Positions 21,336-56,610 of a stretch of 64,000 bases of DNA are shown in pieces. The translations under genes were made by a program, and so were the position numbers. Each line of letters opens with the position of its first letter. The first letter of the stretch is position 1. Under the pieces are notes generated by a model. It ran no database searches, was not told the DNA's origin, and saw nothing but the letters and a program-made list of their open reading frames with translations. Origin of the DNA: an uncultured Paenibacillaceae bacterium (GTDB lineage: Bacteria > Bacillota > Bacilli > Paenibacillales > K13); contig CAJXLT010000014.1 in the NCBI GenBank assembly GCA_913056365.1, positions 1 to 64,000 of the forward strand, read 5' to 3'.

Positions 21336-21762
21336 GAAATTGCTGCAAATCTGCAGGCTTGGAAGGGACAGAACGGATGATTCCCCACAATTGCTGCGAA
21401 TGTGCATCTTTGCACGCGGAATATCGCCAGTTCAGGCAGTCTGTGCTTCAAAAGGATGTATATTCGCAGGCATTCACCACTCCGAGGTAGGTTTGGACGG
21501 AGAAAGATGTATAATCGCAGGTAATAGCCACTCCGGGGCATGTTTGAGCGGAAAGGATGTATAGTACCACTCGAATCGTAGGAATTCACTTGCGCAGCGT
21601 GTATGCTGGCTAGTATGCAAGAAATTCCTGCAGATATGCAGGCTTGGAGCACGCAGGATGGGTGATATCCCACAATTCCTGCGAATGTGCATCTTTGCTC
21701 GCGGAATATCGCCAGTTCGGGCAGTCTGTGCTTCAAAAGGATGTATATTCGCAGGCATTCAC
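21336..21762. repeat. Intergenic direct repeats of 142 bp and related short motifs
   Basis: Copy A (21336-21477) and copy B (21621-21762) are both 142 bases long; their last 91 bases differ at three positions. Within and between them the motif CCTGCGAATRTRCATC occurs in both orientations (near 21392, 21453, 21504, 21679 and 21738). The segment 21453-21560 looks like tandem units of about 50 bases, each carrying a TACATC core and CGGAGTGG. The small open frames here are by-products of the repeats. Confidence 0.75.
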
Positions 21763-21876: not shown

Positions 21877-21908
21877 GGTGCGAATGCTATATCTTTGACG
21901 CAATGCGC

Positions 21909-22080
21909 TACTTCACCAGTTGTCCGCGGACGCGGAAACTGCTTTGACCGGCTCCGCCTACTTCACCAGTTGTCCGCGGGCGCGGAAACTGCTTTGACCG
22001 GCTCCGCCTACTTCACCAGTTGTCCGCGGGCGCGGAAACTTCTTCGATTCGGCTTCGCCTACTTCACTAGTTGTCCGCGG
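21909..22080. repeat. 50-bp tandem array derived from the 3' end of the U32 gene
   Basis: Units begin at 21909, 21959 and 22009, with the parent copy at 22060, giving periods of 50, 50 and 51 bases. Each unit opens with the plus-strand string tacttcaccagttgtccgcgg (parent: tacttcactagttgtccgcgg). In the parent this encodes the C-terminus RGQLVK and the stop of the U32 protein on the minus strand. The rest of the unit is cgcggaaact-gctttgaccggctccgcc. Confidence 0.9.
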
Positions 22081-24617
22081 GTCACACCCAACTGATTCGT
22101 AGCTTTCAGCTTACGCCACACTTGGGTGCCGGAGATGCGGCCGGTCAATGCGTCGCTATACAGCTCCAGCACTTCGCGCACTTTGTCCCCGGGTTCTTCG
22201 AGGAATTCGATACGGAAGCGGCGAACGCCAAGTTCTAGAAATTGCGGCAAATATTCCGAGCCGGATTGCTCGATCGCGTTGTACACCGTATTGCGGCAGC
22301 CTTCATCGACCCGCACCGGATGGTCCATGCCAATCCGGTCCTTGAGGCTGACGCGATGCTCCTCGCAAGGCCGGCCGCAATTCGTATAATCTGTTCCTTC
22401 ACTCAAGAATGTGCAATATACACAATGTTCGGTGTGGAACATCGGCAAGTGCTGATGCAGCACGAGCTCTAACCCAGACGTATCTGTTCGGCGCATCAAA
22501 TCGATCATTTGTTGGATATTCAGGTCATAGGACGGGGTCACTCGCTCACATCCGGCATCACGCAGCAGCTGAACGCTCTTATGATTCGCCGCATTCAAGG
22601 AGAAGTCGCCGATCAGCTGCGGGAATGTCCCTATGCCGCTAGCGTCCTGCTGCGCTTCTAGCCGCTTCTTGTTCAGGTAATAGAGCGCGCCGGTATTGCG
22701 CACGAGGATCGCATCAGGCTGCAAGCGCAGCATATGCTCGAAGTAGCCGGTTTCCCCTGGCATATGAATGCGCGGTGTCACCAGTCCAATCCGCTGCCCA
22801 GCGGCATGTGCCGCTTCTACTGCCGCAGGGAATTGCTTAATGAACTCGAAGTCCGCATAGATCATCGCTGCTCCGTACTCCGCTGCAGCTTCAACCTGTT
22901 CCAAGCTTCGACATAGCACGGTCAACTCTGGTGCCGCTGTCTCCGCTGGTGCGGCTGCTTCACGCTCAATGGCATCCGCATACACATCTACCTTCCGCTT
23001 CATATAGACGGGCGGCTGCTTGCGCAGCTCTTCCAGCCGCTCAACAGCTTCCCGCCGCAGCCGGTTCAACTCGCTCTTCGGCACGATCACGTCGCCATTC
23101 AGCTGTGCATCCATGCCAACCAACTCATACAAGGTGCCGCCTGTACGTCCGAACTGTTCACGCAGCAATGCCTCATCCATAGGACGCTTCAACGCGACCT
23201 CTAGAGACATCTCCGATTCGAGCACGACCGTCTTGCCCTTCTCCACGTCTGTCCACCATGTCTTCAGCGGCTGACCAGCTGATCCCGTAGCCCGAACGTG
23301 AAGCGGGAACACCCGGTAGGGCCGTTCCGTCTCGAACGTTTGCCTCAGCCGGCGGTCTAATGCCGGATCATTCGTCTTCCATATCCGATCGCCTACATGC
23401 ACCCGCTTCAAGTTCACGTCGTTCCGTCCGGGCACAATTTCTACCTGCCAGCCTTCACCCGCTTCTCCTTCGAGCTTCTGCCCATCTCGGCGCAGATCGT
23501 AGACACGTCCGCCTTCCTCCTCCTGTGTCGGATCTCCGGCATCGAACACGATCCCATCTCCCCGCTTCAACGGTTCTTCCAACTTACATACCACACTGTC
23601 CTGCAGCACAGTCAGCACAGTACCCATATACACACCGCGGCTCTTCGGGAATGTCCCGTCTACCAGCTGCTTGTTGTTCGTTCCTCTCAGGAAGCCGTAG
23701 GTGAAGCCGCGCGAGAAGCTTTGCTGTAATTCACGCAGTTCCTCGCGGCTCGGTCCGTCCTGTACGTCTGCGTAGTAATCATCAATCGCTTTGCGGTACT
23801 TGCTCACCACGTTAGCGACATATTCGGCGCTCTTGTATCTGCCCTCTATCTTGAAGGAACGCACACCAGCTTCGATCAGCTCCGGAATAAGTTCAATCGC
23901 AGCCAAGTCCTTAGGACTGAGCAAATAGGCGACGTCGCCCATTGGCTTAATGTCCCCATCGACGACCATATCATAAGGCAGTCGGCATGCCTGCGCACAT
24001 TCTCCGCGGTTGGCCGAACGGCCTCCCCACATTTCTGAAGTCAGGCACTGTCCCGAGTAAGAGACACACAACGCGCCGTGCACGAACACCTCCATCGGCA
24101 GCTTCGCTTGCTCGCCGATCTGTCGAATTTGCTTCAGGTTGTTCTCGCGGCCTAATACGACGAGTTCCAAATCCCACGGCTTGATAAATTCTACTGCCTC
24201 TGGAGAAGTAATCGTCATCTGCGTTGATCCATGTATAGGGAAGTCCGGCGATATGTCCCGAATCATCTTGACCAAGCCTAAGTCTTGCACGATTACGGCA
24301 TCCACACCTGCGTCGATGCATGCTTCCACCAGCTCTTGCGCAGACATTAGCTCTTCCTCGAAGATCAAGATATTGAAGGTGAGAAATCCCCGTACTCCAT
24401 ACCCGCGCAAGAAGCGCATAATATCAGGGAGCTCGTCCATCGTAAAGTTTTTGTTGCGTGCGCGAGCATGGAATCTTTCTACGCCGAAGAAAACTGCATC
24501 CGCCCCATTCGCAACAGCCGCACGCATTCCGTCCCAATCCCCTACCGGTGCGAGCAACTCAACATCTTGCTTCGTTCCGGTACTCGCCTTGCTTGCTATA
24601 TTCCGTACTTCTGACAT
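22059..24617 (-). CDS. U32-family peptidase, two-module (DUF3656-containing)
   Basis: 852 residues. The N-terminal U32 domain opens ELLAPVGDWDGMRAAVANGADAVFFG and contains the family signature region EVFVHGALCVSYSGQCLTSEMWGGRSANRGECAQACRLPY. A central DUF3656-like collagenase-associated domain follows, then a second U32-like TIM region with a Cys cluster (HTEHCVYCTFLSEGTDYTNCGRPCEEH). Homologues such as RlhA/TrhP act in RNA hydroxylation rather than proteolysis, with the Cys residues probably binding iron-sulfur. ATG at 24617 follows GGGGGAAGTAACG. Its last codons are repeated three times downstream. Confidence 0.93.
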   Translation of the reverse strand: MSEVRNIASKASTGTKQDVELLAPVGDWDGMRAAVANGADAVFFGVERFHARARNKNFTMDELPDIMRFLRGYGVRGFLTFNILIFEEELMSAQELVEACIDAGVDAVIVQDLGLVKMIRDISPDFPIHGSTQMTITSPEAVEFIKPWDLELVVLGRENNLKQIRQIGEQAKLPMEVFVHGALCVSYSGQCLTSEMWGGRSANRGECAQACRLPYDMVVDGDIKPMGDVAYLLSPKDLAAIELIPELIEAGVRSFKIEGRYKSAEYVANVVSKYRKAIDDYYADVQDGPSREELRELQQSFSRGFTYGFLRGTNNKQLVDGTFPKSRGVYMGTVLTVLQDSVVCKLEEPLKRGDGIVFDAGDPTQEEEGGRVYDLRRDGQKLEGEAGEGWQVEIVPGRNDVNLKRVHVGDRIWKTNDPALDRRLRQTFETERPYRVFPLHVRATGSAGQPLKTWWTDVEKGKTVVLESEMSLEVALKRPMDEALLREQFGRTGGTLYELVGMDAQLNGDVIVPKSELNRLRREAVERLEELRKQPPVYMKRKVDVYADAIEREAAAPAETAAPELTVLCRSLEQVEAAAEYGAAMIYADFEFIKQFPAAVEAAHAAGQRIGLVTPRIHMPGETGYFEHMLRLQPDAILVRNTGALYYLNKKRLEAQQDASGIGTFPQLIGDFSLNAANHKSVQLLRDAGCERVTPSYDLNIQQMIDLMRRTDTSGLELVLHQHLPMFHTEHCVYCTFLSEGTDYTNCGRPCEEHRVSLKDRIGMDHPVRVDEGCRNTVYNAIEQSGSEYLPQFLELGVRRFRIEFLEEPGDKVREVLELYSDALTGRISGTQVWRKLKATNQLGVTRGQLVK

Positions 24618-53501: not shown

Positions 53502-54509
53502 CTAAGATTGTGTAAATTTTTCTAGCATCTCTGCGTAATAATCCGGATATTCACGAACAATATTATTTTGCAGGTACTTAATATATTTATTCTCAATTGC
53601 TTGAATCAAGGCAGCGGGTAATCTGAATTCGAAGAACTCCTCATCCGGACCAGTTAAATCTAACCATTGAATGAGAGCATCAATTTTCTCCTGCTCGGCA
53701 AATTCTACAAATATACGATGTACCCACTTACCGTAATTAACTTGATGATCTATTAAGGTTTGCTTTTCATTCTGCATCATAATTTCGTCAGCATTCTGTA
53801 AAAAGTTTATGAATAATTCAGACATTCCATGAAGTTTCGAGAGGAGGTATAGTCTGTCTGTACCAATCGATTCATTCATAACCCCTTGGCTTTTTTCAAC
53901 AGTAACCTTCGGTTTGTCGATGTCGAATGTGTGCGAGATAATCTCCCAAAACAAAGACTCATCATTCTTCATGATTTCATAAGGTAGAATCAAAATATTA
54001 TCGAAATATCTACTATATGAACGAACTAAGTATTCGACGTCAAAGGAATGGATCAAAAATTGTGTTTGCTGATCGATAAATTGCTGAATATTCCCACTCC
54101 ATCCTTGTTTGATCGATTGATTATAGATAGATCTTATCCATGACAATGGCTCTCTAACTACAAGCAGAATATTAGATGTTGCATCAGATAATCTGCCAAG
54201 GTTACGGCTTGCAAACTCTATGAAATCGGGAATACGCGTTTGATATTCAGGCTCATTCAGGAAAGCTGTGGAAAATCCCTCATTGGAAACTACAATTTTC
54301 TGACCTTCTACGTACGGTGAATCCGTGTTAATTTCACTTTGCACATATCCTTGTGTTCTTTTCAGTCTAACCTCTTCCCTCAACTGTTCTACAAATGCAA
54401 CATTCCCTCTGTATGAAAGAGCATATGCGGGATCAGTATTCCACACTTGTTGCATATAGGTTGTAGCGGTTTTCATCATGCCAAGATGAATAAATTCAAT
54501 TCGACTCAT
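53502..54509 (-). CDS. Sulfotransferase-like protein
   Basis: 335 residues, ATG at 54509 with AAAGGAG upstream. The N-terminal HLGMMKTATTYMQQVW fits the 5'-phosphosulfate loop of PAPS-dependent sulfotransferases (xxxPKTGTTxLQ). LLVVREPLSWIRSIYNQS fits the 3'-phosphate-binding strand-helix. No signal peptide, so cytoplasmic, and no membrane segment. Visibly more AT-rich than secA and hpf on either side, which are normally adjacent, so probably an insertion. The likely acceptor is a glycan or protein; the nonulosonic acid cluster nearby is a candidate partner. Confidence 0.7.
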   Translation of the reverse strand: MSRIEFIHLGMMKTATTYMQQVWNTDPAYALSYRGNVAFVEQLREEVRLKRTQGYVQSEINTDSPYVEGQKIVVSNEGFSTAFLNEPEYQTRIPDFIEFASRNLGRLSDATSNILLVVREPLSWIRSIYNQSIKQGWSGNIQQFIDQQTQFLIHSFDVEYLVRSYSRYFDNILILPYEIMKNDESLFWEIISHTFDIDKPKVTVEKSQGVMNESIGTDRLYLLSKLHGMSELFINFLQNADEIMMQNEKQTLIDHQVNYGKWVHRIFVEFAEQEKIDALIQWLDLTGPDEEFFEFRLPAALIQAIENKYIKYLQNNIVREYPDYYAEMLEKFTQS

Positions 54510-54667: not shown

Positions 54668-55231
54668 TCACTTGGCCGGTTCAATCAACCCATACCGACC
54701 GTCACTTCGCTTATACACGACATTGACTTCTTCGGAATCCATATTGGAGAAAACAAAGAAATCATGCCCGATCATGTTCATCTGAAGAATCGCTTCTTCT
54801 ATATCCATAGGCTTGAGTGTGAAGCGCTTGGTGCGAACGACTTCCATATCGTCTTCTTCCTCTTCATGCAGAGGCTTGTTAGGTACCGTTGCTTCGAAGT
54901 TGTCCTTGAAGAGCGTGCGCAGGCTGCCTTCCTGACGAAACTTGCTGTTCACCTTCGTCTTGTGCTTGCGGATTTGCCGTTCCAGCTTATCCAGCACCAA
55001 GTCAATCGACGTATACATATCCGTATTGCGCTCCTCTGCGCGAAGCAGCAAGGATGGCATCGGAATGGTCACCTCGACGCTCTGAATGTCCTTATTGACA
55101 CTCAGCGTGACCTGGGCATCATTAGTAGGGGGAGTATCGAAATAACGTTCGAGCTTGCCGAGTTTCTTCTCCACGTAATCTTTCAGCGCTTGCGTGACTT
55201 CAAGATTCTGACCGCGAATGTTCAGTTTCAT
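54668..55231 (-). CDS. hpf: Long-form ribosome hibernation promoting factor
   Basis: 187 residues. N-terminal S30AE domain (LNIRGQNLEVTQALKDYVEKKLGKLERYF) that fills the mRNA/tRNA channel. A linker follows, then the C-terminal dimerisation domain of the long form (VVRTKRFTLKPMDIEEAILQMNMIGHDFFVFSNMDSEEVNVVYKRSDGRYGLIEP) that pairs 70S into 100S ribosomes. Own promoter and terminator. Confidence 0.97.
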   Translation of the reverse strand: MKLNIRGQNLEVTQALKDYVEKKLGKLERYFDTPPTNDAQVTLSVNKDIQSVEVTIPMPSLLLRAEERNTDMYTSIDLVLDKLERQIRKHKTKVNSKFRQEGSLRTLFKDNFEATVPNKPLHEEEEDDMEVVRTKRFTLKPMDIEEAILQMNMIGHDFFVFSNMDSEEVNVVYKRSDGRYGLIEPAK

Positions 55232-55289: not shown

Positions 55290-55348
55290 AAATCATTTAC
55301 AAACTGTCAGGAAATATTCACCGAAACAAGGGGTGGTTCTACTCCCAC

Positions 55349-55390
55349 GCAAAAAAACCGCCCTAGGAGAAATCCCCCGGGGCGGGTTGC
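55349..55390 (-). terminator. Terminator of the cold-shock gene
   Basis: On the minus strand CCGCCC-C-GGGGGA pairs with TCTCCT-A-GGGCGG, followed by TTTTTTTGCG. Confidence 0.9.
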
Positions 55391-55444
55391 TGCTAATCGA
55401 TCTATAATCCTCTATAAGAGGCGGGTATCAATCCCGCGTAGAGA

Positions 55445-55642
55445 TTATAACTTAATGACGTTAGCTGCTTGAGGTCCGCGTGCGCCTTCGACGATGTCGA
55501 ACTCTACAGCTTGACCTTCGTCAAGAGTCTTGAAGCCTTCGGATTGGATAGCGGAGAAATGTACGAAAACGTCGCCGCCTTCATCAGTCTCAATAAAGCC
55601 ATAACCCTTCTCTGCATTAAACCATTTCACTTTACCTTGCAT
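55445..55642 (-). CDS. Cold-shock protein (CspA/CspB family)
   Basis: 65 residues, complete cold-shock domain with both RNA-binding motifs: KGYGFI (RNP1) and VFVHF (RNP2). Starts [14 protein letters not shown] single-stranded nucleic acid chaperone. The promoter lies 54-82 bases upstream of the ATG, giving an untranslated leader of about 50 bases. Confidence 0.96.
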
Positions 55643-55695
55643 GCAAAAACATTCCCTTCGTATTCAAATAGCTGCGAGCTTACACTCACATTCTG

Positions 55696-55724
55696 AATAT
55701 AACACTCCGCACACGCAATGTCAA
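55696..55724 (-). promoter_or_regulatory. Cold-shock gene promoter
   Basis: Minus strand -35 TTGACA (perfect, 55719-55724), 17-bp spacer, -10 TATATT (55696-55701). A strong sigma-A promoter. Confidence 0.78.
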
Positions 55725-55896
55725 TCAAAAACACTTACGAAAATGCCTGTCGTTATGCGGATTTGCTTGCATACGGGCCGGTATTTCATCATGTCGAGGA
55801 CGCTCTTTCTGACACTTGTCAACAGGCCGTTCGTTATTGTCCGAAGTTATTCCTAAGTTATTTACAATCCCTTAACATGATGTAAGCTTGTTTTCA

Positions 55897-56610
55897 TTAG
55901 TTATGCACAGAGTTGTCCACATTATCCACAGGCTTGCGCAGCAGATATTCACAGAGCTCAAAGTCGTGTAAAGTATCGATATCATAGGAGCGTTCCCGCG
56001 GCATGATGTAACCAACGGTATTCTGATCAATAAAACCGCGCGTTTTCTTTAACCAGTCAATCTTAGCAAAGTACAACGCTCCATTTAATGCATAAGAGAT
56101 AGGAAGATCCTGCCTTCTAGTAACCAATGGTTTGTCAATTAAGGGGCTAAGCTTACCCTCTACATTCATCTGATACATCCAAAATGGACTCTTGTCTGGC
56201 TCGACTACCGACACACTGCTACTTGCACCAGATTTTATACACAACTCCATGCAAGCATCAATATCTTCAGAAGTTCGTAAAGGTGATGTTGGCTGAAGCA
56301 TAAGCACATAATCATAACCAGGCAACTGGTCTAGCGCGTGCAGAATCGGATCAATCCCGGGCGTATCATCCTGAGATAATTCCCCTGGACGAACGAACGG
56401 AGCCTCACAACCATAACGTTGGGCTACATCGATGATTGCTCGATCATTCGATGACACTATGATTCGATCTAAGTATCGCGATTGTTGTGCTGCCTCAATT
56501 GTCCAAGCTATAAGAGGCTTGCCCAACAAGGAACGAATATTTTTGCCAGGGACTCCTCGTGATCCTCCCCTTGCCGGTATAACAGCTAATATACGATACT
56601 TTCCAATCAC
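55897..56610 (-). CDS. legF: CMP-nonulosonate (legionaminate/neuraminate) cytidylyltransferase
   Basis: 237 residues, GT-A-like nucleotidyltransferase. CTP-binding signature AVIPARGGSRGVPGKNI, YVLMLQPTSPLRTSEDID and SYALNGALYFAK. It activates the sugar acid as CMP-sugar for a transferase. Last visible gene of the cluster, overlapping the preceding gene by 4 bases. Its C-terminal tail VDNVDNSVHN is encoded by three DnaA boxes and looks like an add-on beyond the fold. NeuA and LegF cannot be separated by motifs; the LegB/LegC context favours LegF. Confidence 0.85.
   Translation of the reverse strand: MIGKYRILAVIPARGGSRGVPGKNIRSLLGKPLIAWTIEAAQQSRYLDRIIVSSNDRAIIDVAQRYGCEAPFVRPGELSQDDTPGIDPILHALDQLPGYDYVLMLQPTSPLRTSEDIDACMELCIKSGASSSVSVVEPDKSPFWMYQMNVEGKLSPLIDKPLVTRRQDLPISYALNGALYFAKIDWLKKTRGFIDQNTVGYIMPRERSYDIDTLHDFELCEYLLRKPVDNVDNSVHN
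55901..55930 (+). promoter_or_regulatory. Cluster of three DnaA boxes
   Basis: TTATGCACA (55901-55909), TTGTCCACA (55913-55921) and TTATCCACA (55922-55930) are all in the same orientation. The first and third match the consensus TTATnCACA perfectly; the second differs at one base. They lie within the last codons of the CMP-sugar synthetase gene, encoding its NVDNSVHN tail on the other strand. No dnaA or dnaN gene is nearby. Confidence 0.7.

Follow-up and report, generated by a model that had tools for sequence, protein, structure and literature searches.

We consider it reasonably probable that the fliT-hpf-secA locus carries a conserved chromosomal cluster of DnaA boxes that sequesters DnaA, with its core in a 30-mer overlapping the end of legF in the window (the whole 64,000-nucleotide stretch of DNA analysed). 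Genome comparison indicates that this element is older and larger than a preliminary description of the same DNA had it, and that it has held a single syntenic position despite gene turnover. Since its layout is fixed at the same place while the surrounding genes change, the element probably has a part in restraining or controlling DnaA, not in the function of the overlapped gene. Knowledge of DnaA-box clusters beyond oriC comes mainly from a single species of Bacilli, and whether they are selected control sites or passive sinks is debated; fixed geometry at one syntenic place in many families, despite the exchange of flanks, constitutes evolutionary evidence that the site itself matters.

The coordinates of the features are collected in Table 1. 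Read on the minus strand, which encodes legF, csp, hpf, and secA, the core has the letters TGTGGATAATGTGGACAACTCTGTGCATAA. On the plus strand it is composed of a perfect box at 55901–55909 (TTATGCACA), a box with one mismatch at 55913–55921 (TTGTCCACA), and another perfect box at 55922–55930 (TTATCCACA), whose starts are 12 and then 9 bp apart. This confirms the positions of the three head-to-tail boxes (two perfect, one with a single mismatch in 30 bases) given in the preliminary description, as well as its statement that they encode the legF tail VDNVDNSVHN, which can be read from the minus-strand ORF. A cluster was defined as three boxes on one strand with starts within 22 bp, each with at most one mismatch and at least two of them perfect. 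The 64-kb window contained one such cluster and its dinucleotide-preserving shuffles none (0/300), in agreement with the low chance previously claimed. Within the 4.65-Mb genome, same-orientation pairs of perfect boxes within 30 bp were limited to two sites, the core and one just after tsaD (gcp) on contig C7, and the reversed-pattern control for paired perfect boxes gave zero over the whole genome. Near-consensus boxes are thus clustered beyond chance, as in clusters of the B. subtilis type, and the exact core layout is present as a single copy in the window genome. Additionally, the upstream companion box was kept in the sister genome G001, and a box of this type was located 22–24 bp upstream of the core in 8 of 25 genera.

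Table 1. Features of the DnaA-box element and its neighbours in the window.
Feature	Position	Strand	Remarks
DnaA-box core, three head-to-tail boxes	55901..55930	-	TGTGGATAA-TGTGGACAA-CTC-TGTGCATAA, starts 9 and 12 bp apart
Upstream companion box	55945..55953	-	TGTGAATAT (plus strand ATATTCACA), one mismatch, 23 bp upstream of the core
Dyad	55880..55897	-	ATGAAAACAAGCTTACAT, one change from the family form ATGAAAACAAGCTTTCAT; separated from the third box by 3 bp
Weak downstream box	55858..55866	-	TGTAAATAA (plus strand TTATTTACA), one mismatch, within the conserved island
Conserved island	55848..55956	-	About 109 bp; holds core, companion box, dyad, and weak box; 88% identical between the window genome and G001
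legF-type CMP-sugar synthetase (CTP_transf_3)	55897..56610	-	Last codons overlap the core
csp, cold-shock protein	55445..55642	-	Promoter TTGACA-17-TATATT at 55724-55696
hpf, long hibernation promoting factor	54668..55231	-	Marks the conserved side of the locus with secA and prfB

The overlap with legF was examined in G001, the sole other genome of the same genus compared. In G001, legF is missing at the corresponding place, where another gene is situated, and the nearest LegF homologue lies 3.8 kb upstream with 40% identity; an 18-codon remnant of the legF tail, CEYLFRKSVDNVDNFVHN, is retained. The core is identical at 29 of 30 bases between the two genomes and sits in the island of about 109 bp, outside of which identity falls to 40% in the flank toward legF and to 49% in the spacer on the csp side, rising again to 82% over the csp promoter and leader. 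Because the island persists in a genome without legF at this place, the overlap is, on this comparison, an accident and legF an incidental neighbour; gene replacement has come up to the edge of the element and stopped there. The preliminary description had asked whether relatives keep the boxes more than the legF tail, and G001 retains the boxes without the gene, the opposite of the outcome (legF kept, boxes lost) that it had named as refuting. Its proposal of a DnaA-binding cluster outside oriC thus finds strong comparative support in the conservation of the cluster at one locus through families and orders, while the link to legF turned out to be incidental.

When up to 1.5 kb upstream of hpf was surveyed in 99 genomes of the order by scoring the layout TGTGNAYAATGTGNAYAANNNTGTKNAYAA over 24 fixed positions, scores of 22–24 were obtained in f1 (2/2), f2 (1/1), f3 (1/1), f4 (1/1), f5 (46/49), f6 (5/5), f8 (4/4), and f9 (1/1). 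Shuffled sequences reached best scores of 13–17, with one outlier at 21, and the scores upstream of hpf in f7 (0/2) and f10 (0/33) were at this level; no f10 genome carried the exact pattern anywhere. The layout is thus present at hpf-secA in 61 of the 66 sampled order genomes outside f10, or in 63 when two copies further upstream are counted. An exact core lies 3.1 kb before hpf in G090 (f5) and 5.9 kb before it in G011 (f11), further away because genes were inserted. Across the order, the exact pattern gave 91 matches in 86 of 198 genomes and the reversed pattern none; 85 of the 91 were at the hpf locus, counting G132, where the match is at csp near a contig end. Over 25 genera, information content amounted to 1.64 bits per base in the core, 1.02 in the next 20 bases, and about 0.2 in the flanks. 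An extra exact core away from hpf was observed in a few f5 genomes (G012, G022, G051, G057, G150, and G029), located after or close to leuA at loci L189 and L190 and after a gene encoding an HI0933-like flavoprotein at L191. Many order genomes also bear an AATTTTC..AAATATT stretch at about core +85 that resembles a CodY box.

At the class level, the strict pattern was found in 21 of 299 genomes and its reverse in none. Outside the window genome, 19 of 21 strict matches (in 18 genomes, with two in G219) belong to one syntenic block composed of fliS-fliT or comFC-HU, then the element, and then hpf-secA, with prfB mostly in view; the remaining two (G322 and G460) are situated after tsaD. Between the element and hpf there is nothing, csp, or an amino-acid ABC transporter, and in f26, f39 (G390), and f40 the element separates the genes for the binding protein and the permease. 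The first gene after the element therefore varies (csp, hpf, the ABC-transporter binding protein, or its permease), and the distance from the element to hpf ranges from 157 bp to 7.3 kb. In two Clostridia-like MAGs (L052 and L054), the exact core occupies the same place in inverted orientation relative to csp-hpf.

Regarding the dyad, which touches the legF stop codon, the alignment of most order families shows the core, three bases, and then the family form or close variants, and the region from core +30 to +50 carries a mean of 1.0 bit per base. A search allowing one mismatch returned a single match in the window genome, at the core. Order-wide, the dyad occurs mainly at the hpf locus, about once per genome, and exact copies elsewhere are rare (G140 C4). 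A multi-gene regulon is therefore unlikely, exact copies being nearly confined to the hpf locus, and the near-single copy number, unlike that of a regulon operator, suggests that the dyad is the site for a locus-specific putative partner protein. It was missing in several f5 genera and in the class-level loci of other orders, where the core is kept. The dyad may lead to a partner so far missing from DnaA control in Gram-positive bacteria, and the element as a whole offers a concrete target of 30–50 bp.

Along its length, the DnaA of the window genome closely resembles PDB DnaA chain 8btg and, as its domain IV motif GRDHTTVIHAHEKI is identical to that of 8btg, should read TTATnCACA with a DNA-binding motif of the B. 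subtilis type. The boxes, head-to-tail at steps of 9 and 12 bp, would allow several adjacent DnaA molecules to bind cooperatively, and a second protein may bind the adjacent dyad. DnaA bound at the cluster would be withheld from oriC by titration, and the copying of the cluster soon after initiation would add binding capacity and delay the next initiation, a mechanism already proposed for the clusters outside oriC in B. subtilis. In B. subtilis, removing six clusters outside oriC leads to early initiation (PMC5295017, PMC13220808), restoring one of them partly relieves it (PMC5295017), and the eight strongest DnaA regions in vitro, all rich in boxes, are those bound in vivo (PMC4447404). These deletion and binding data, together with E. 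coli work that supports titration by boxes concentrated near oriC (PMC12371093), lead us to favour a DnaA-sequestering cluster. Against this reading, family f10 lives without the element; against a pure sink, the orientation of the core with hpf is constant in the sampled Bacilli, which a sink would not need, although common descent explains it. More doubtfully, the element may be an ancient, near-single-copy replication-control site of Bacilli at fliT-hpf-secA whose fixed 9+12 array, joined in many lineages to a dyad with a putative partner, sets the availability or the nucleotide state of DnaA; such a site would have persisted while all its neighbouring genes were exchanged, and is absent from the hpf locus in lineages such as B. 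subtilis, whose top DnaA regions lie elsewhere, and in f10. Literature searches, mainly of open-access sources, returned no description of a DnaA cluster at hpf/csp.

The core is located outside oriC and not beside dnaA/dnaN: in the window genome, dnaA-dnaN with its own box clusters is on contig C13 and the core on C14, and in relatives hpf is 109–161 kb from dnaA (17 complete f5 genomes of 8 genera). Since C14 is collinear with the stretch from 114 to 140 kb in G055, where dnaA lies at 1 kb, closeness of the element to oriC is plausible in the window genome as well. A general need for such closeness was rejected: it holds in f5, but the distance between element and dnaA, about 169 kb in G390, reaches 360 kb in G207, about 403 kb in G242, and about 977 kb in G002, the last three values making closeness no rule. 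The element-free f10, with hpf 400–754 kb from dnaA in 16 complete genomes, forms a natural comparison group to f5, and the contrast between these families is an association only.

DnaA regulates transcription at some of its binding regions (PMC4447404), and at every Bacilli locus examined the core stands upstream of and co-directional with hpf. In the window genome, as in most of the order, it is 170–310 bp upstream of csp, whereas in f8, G108, G207, G214, and G234 it is 157–226 bp before hpf, with no csp between. These arrangements would fit the main rival reading, in which DnaA regulates transcription of the csp-hpf(-secA) unit, as it does at the sda promoter of B. subtilis, and so couples ribosome hibernation or the cold-shock protein to the replication cycle; we nevertheless regard this role as rather unlikely. 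The preliminary description placed a cold-shock promoter about 170 bases downstream of the boxes, and a promoter was indeed found there, matching 11 of 12 hexamer positions, with TG before the second hexamer; however, the distance of about 177 bp from the boxes to its -35 hexamer is far for direct control. Likewise, island and promoter are both conserved in the sister genomes, yet the spacer joining them is only 49% identical, and the first downstream gene changes among csp, hpf, a binding-protein gene, and a permease gene, and hpf can lie 3–7 kb away. The same core lies between convergent tsaD and ydiF in G460, where this placement makes promoter control implausible, and it is inverted in the two Clostridia-like MAGs. 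Because the element persists without csp, before hpf, the binding-protein gene, or the permease gene, control of the csp promoter is less likely as its ancestral role, but sequestering of DnaA and transcription control of csp/hpf could hold together.

A further step down in probability is a site that changes the nucleotide state of DnaA or hosts a specific nucleoprotein complex, in a role like that of datA or DARS and with a second protein on the dyad. The fixed box layout with the dyad in fixed register, nearly single-copy per genome, would suit this, and among the high-affinity regions of B. subtilis those at tsaD/gcp and sda prefer ATP-DnaA the most (PMC4447404). Against it, several f5 genera and the other orders keep the core and lack the dyad. 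We know of no nucleotide-state activity at any B. subtilis DnaA-box cluster. A conserved RNA structure or csp leader in place of a DNA site is very improbable: the island is situated upstream of the csp promoter, its folding does not surpass that of shuffles (z 0.64), no Rfam family reached the gathering score in 55300–56100, and a sub-threshold match to the cspA thermoregulator covers the csp gene and leader, not the boxes. Finally, the boxes do encode a repetitive tail, as expected if a run of DnaA-like words had arisen by chance where a coding sequence ends in a VDN-VDN codon repeat. The probability of such a run is practically negligible, given the empty shuffles, the core kept without legF and at 61 of the 99 order loci, and the zero count of the reversed-pattern control, and conservation at the locus already refutes it.

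Concerning the surroundings of the element, the HPF of the window genome is 65–69% identical to that of Paenibacillus species, so the genome is Paenibacillus-like and not Bacillus itself. An ORF of 335 aa at 53502–54509, between hpf and secA, resembles a sulfotransferase or glycan-modifying enzyme. Elsewhere in the window, a tandem array at 21908–22081 consists of 3.5 copies of a 50-bp unit with 94% matches, and a second array with a 51-bp unit is situated nearby at 21451–21563. A plasmid search with the flank (PLSDB) gave no match.

When compared to known systems, the favoured DnaA-sequestering cluster most resembles the B. subtilis clusters outside oriC, which are located at gcp/ydiF, ywlC, ywcI-vpr, yydA, sda-yqeG, and trmE-jag. 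Both have dense consensus boxes away from the dnaA region, those of B. subtilis mostly between genes. In contrast to the latter, the hpf-locus element has a defined 9+12 layout across families and a dyad in most order families, and none of the top 20 B. subtilis DnaA regions is at hpf (yvyD) or secA (PMC4447404). It shares with E. coli datA, DARS1, and DARS2 the character of short non-coding DnaA-box sites at fixed positions outside oriC (PMC5295017). Whereas DnaA binding at datA is promoted by IHF, the single additional site observed at the hpf-locus element is the dyad with its putative partner; of its features, only this conserved, nearly single-copy dyad is suggestive of a role like that of datA/DARS. 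The sda promoter of B. subtilis likewise has several boxes upstream of a gene, whose transcription DnaA activates (PMC4447404). Unlike sda, however, the downstream gene here changes between families, and in the window about 177 bp separate the boxes from the nearest promoter.

Like B. subtilis, the window genome also has a cluster after tsaD/gcp, at C7:82683-82898 (L111 2684-2899), with box starts 9+9 and 12+9 bp apart. It is the apparent counterpart of the gcp-ydiF region, described in B. subtilis as a strong DnaA region 'downstream of gcp; downstream of ydiF' (PMC4447404), which the G460 core between tsaD and ydiF matches in place. The cluster is followed by an 833-aa ORF with no Pfam match, homologues of which occur after the core copy in G150 (L190) and after the tsaD copy in G322 (L205). 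Finally, a degenerate 9+12 array composed of TGTGGGTAA, TGTGGATAG, three bases, and TGTGGACAA was observed between two unrelated genes of the window genome at C12:14969-14999 (L113 1970-1999) and represents a possible third cluster.
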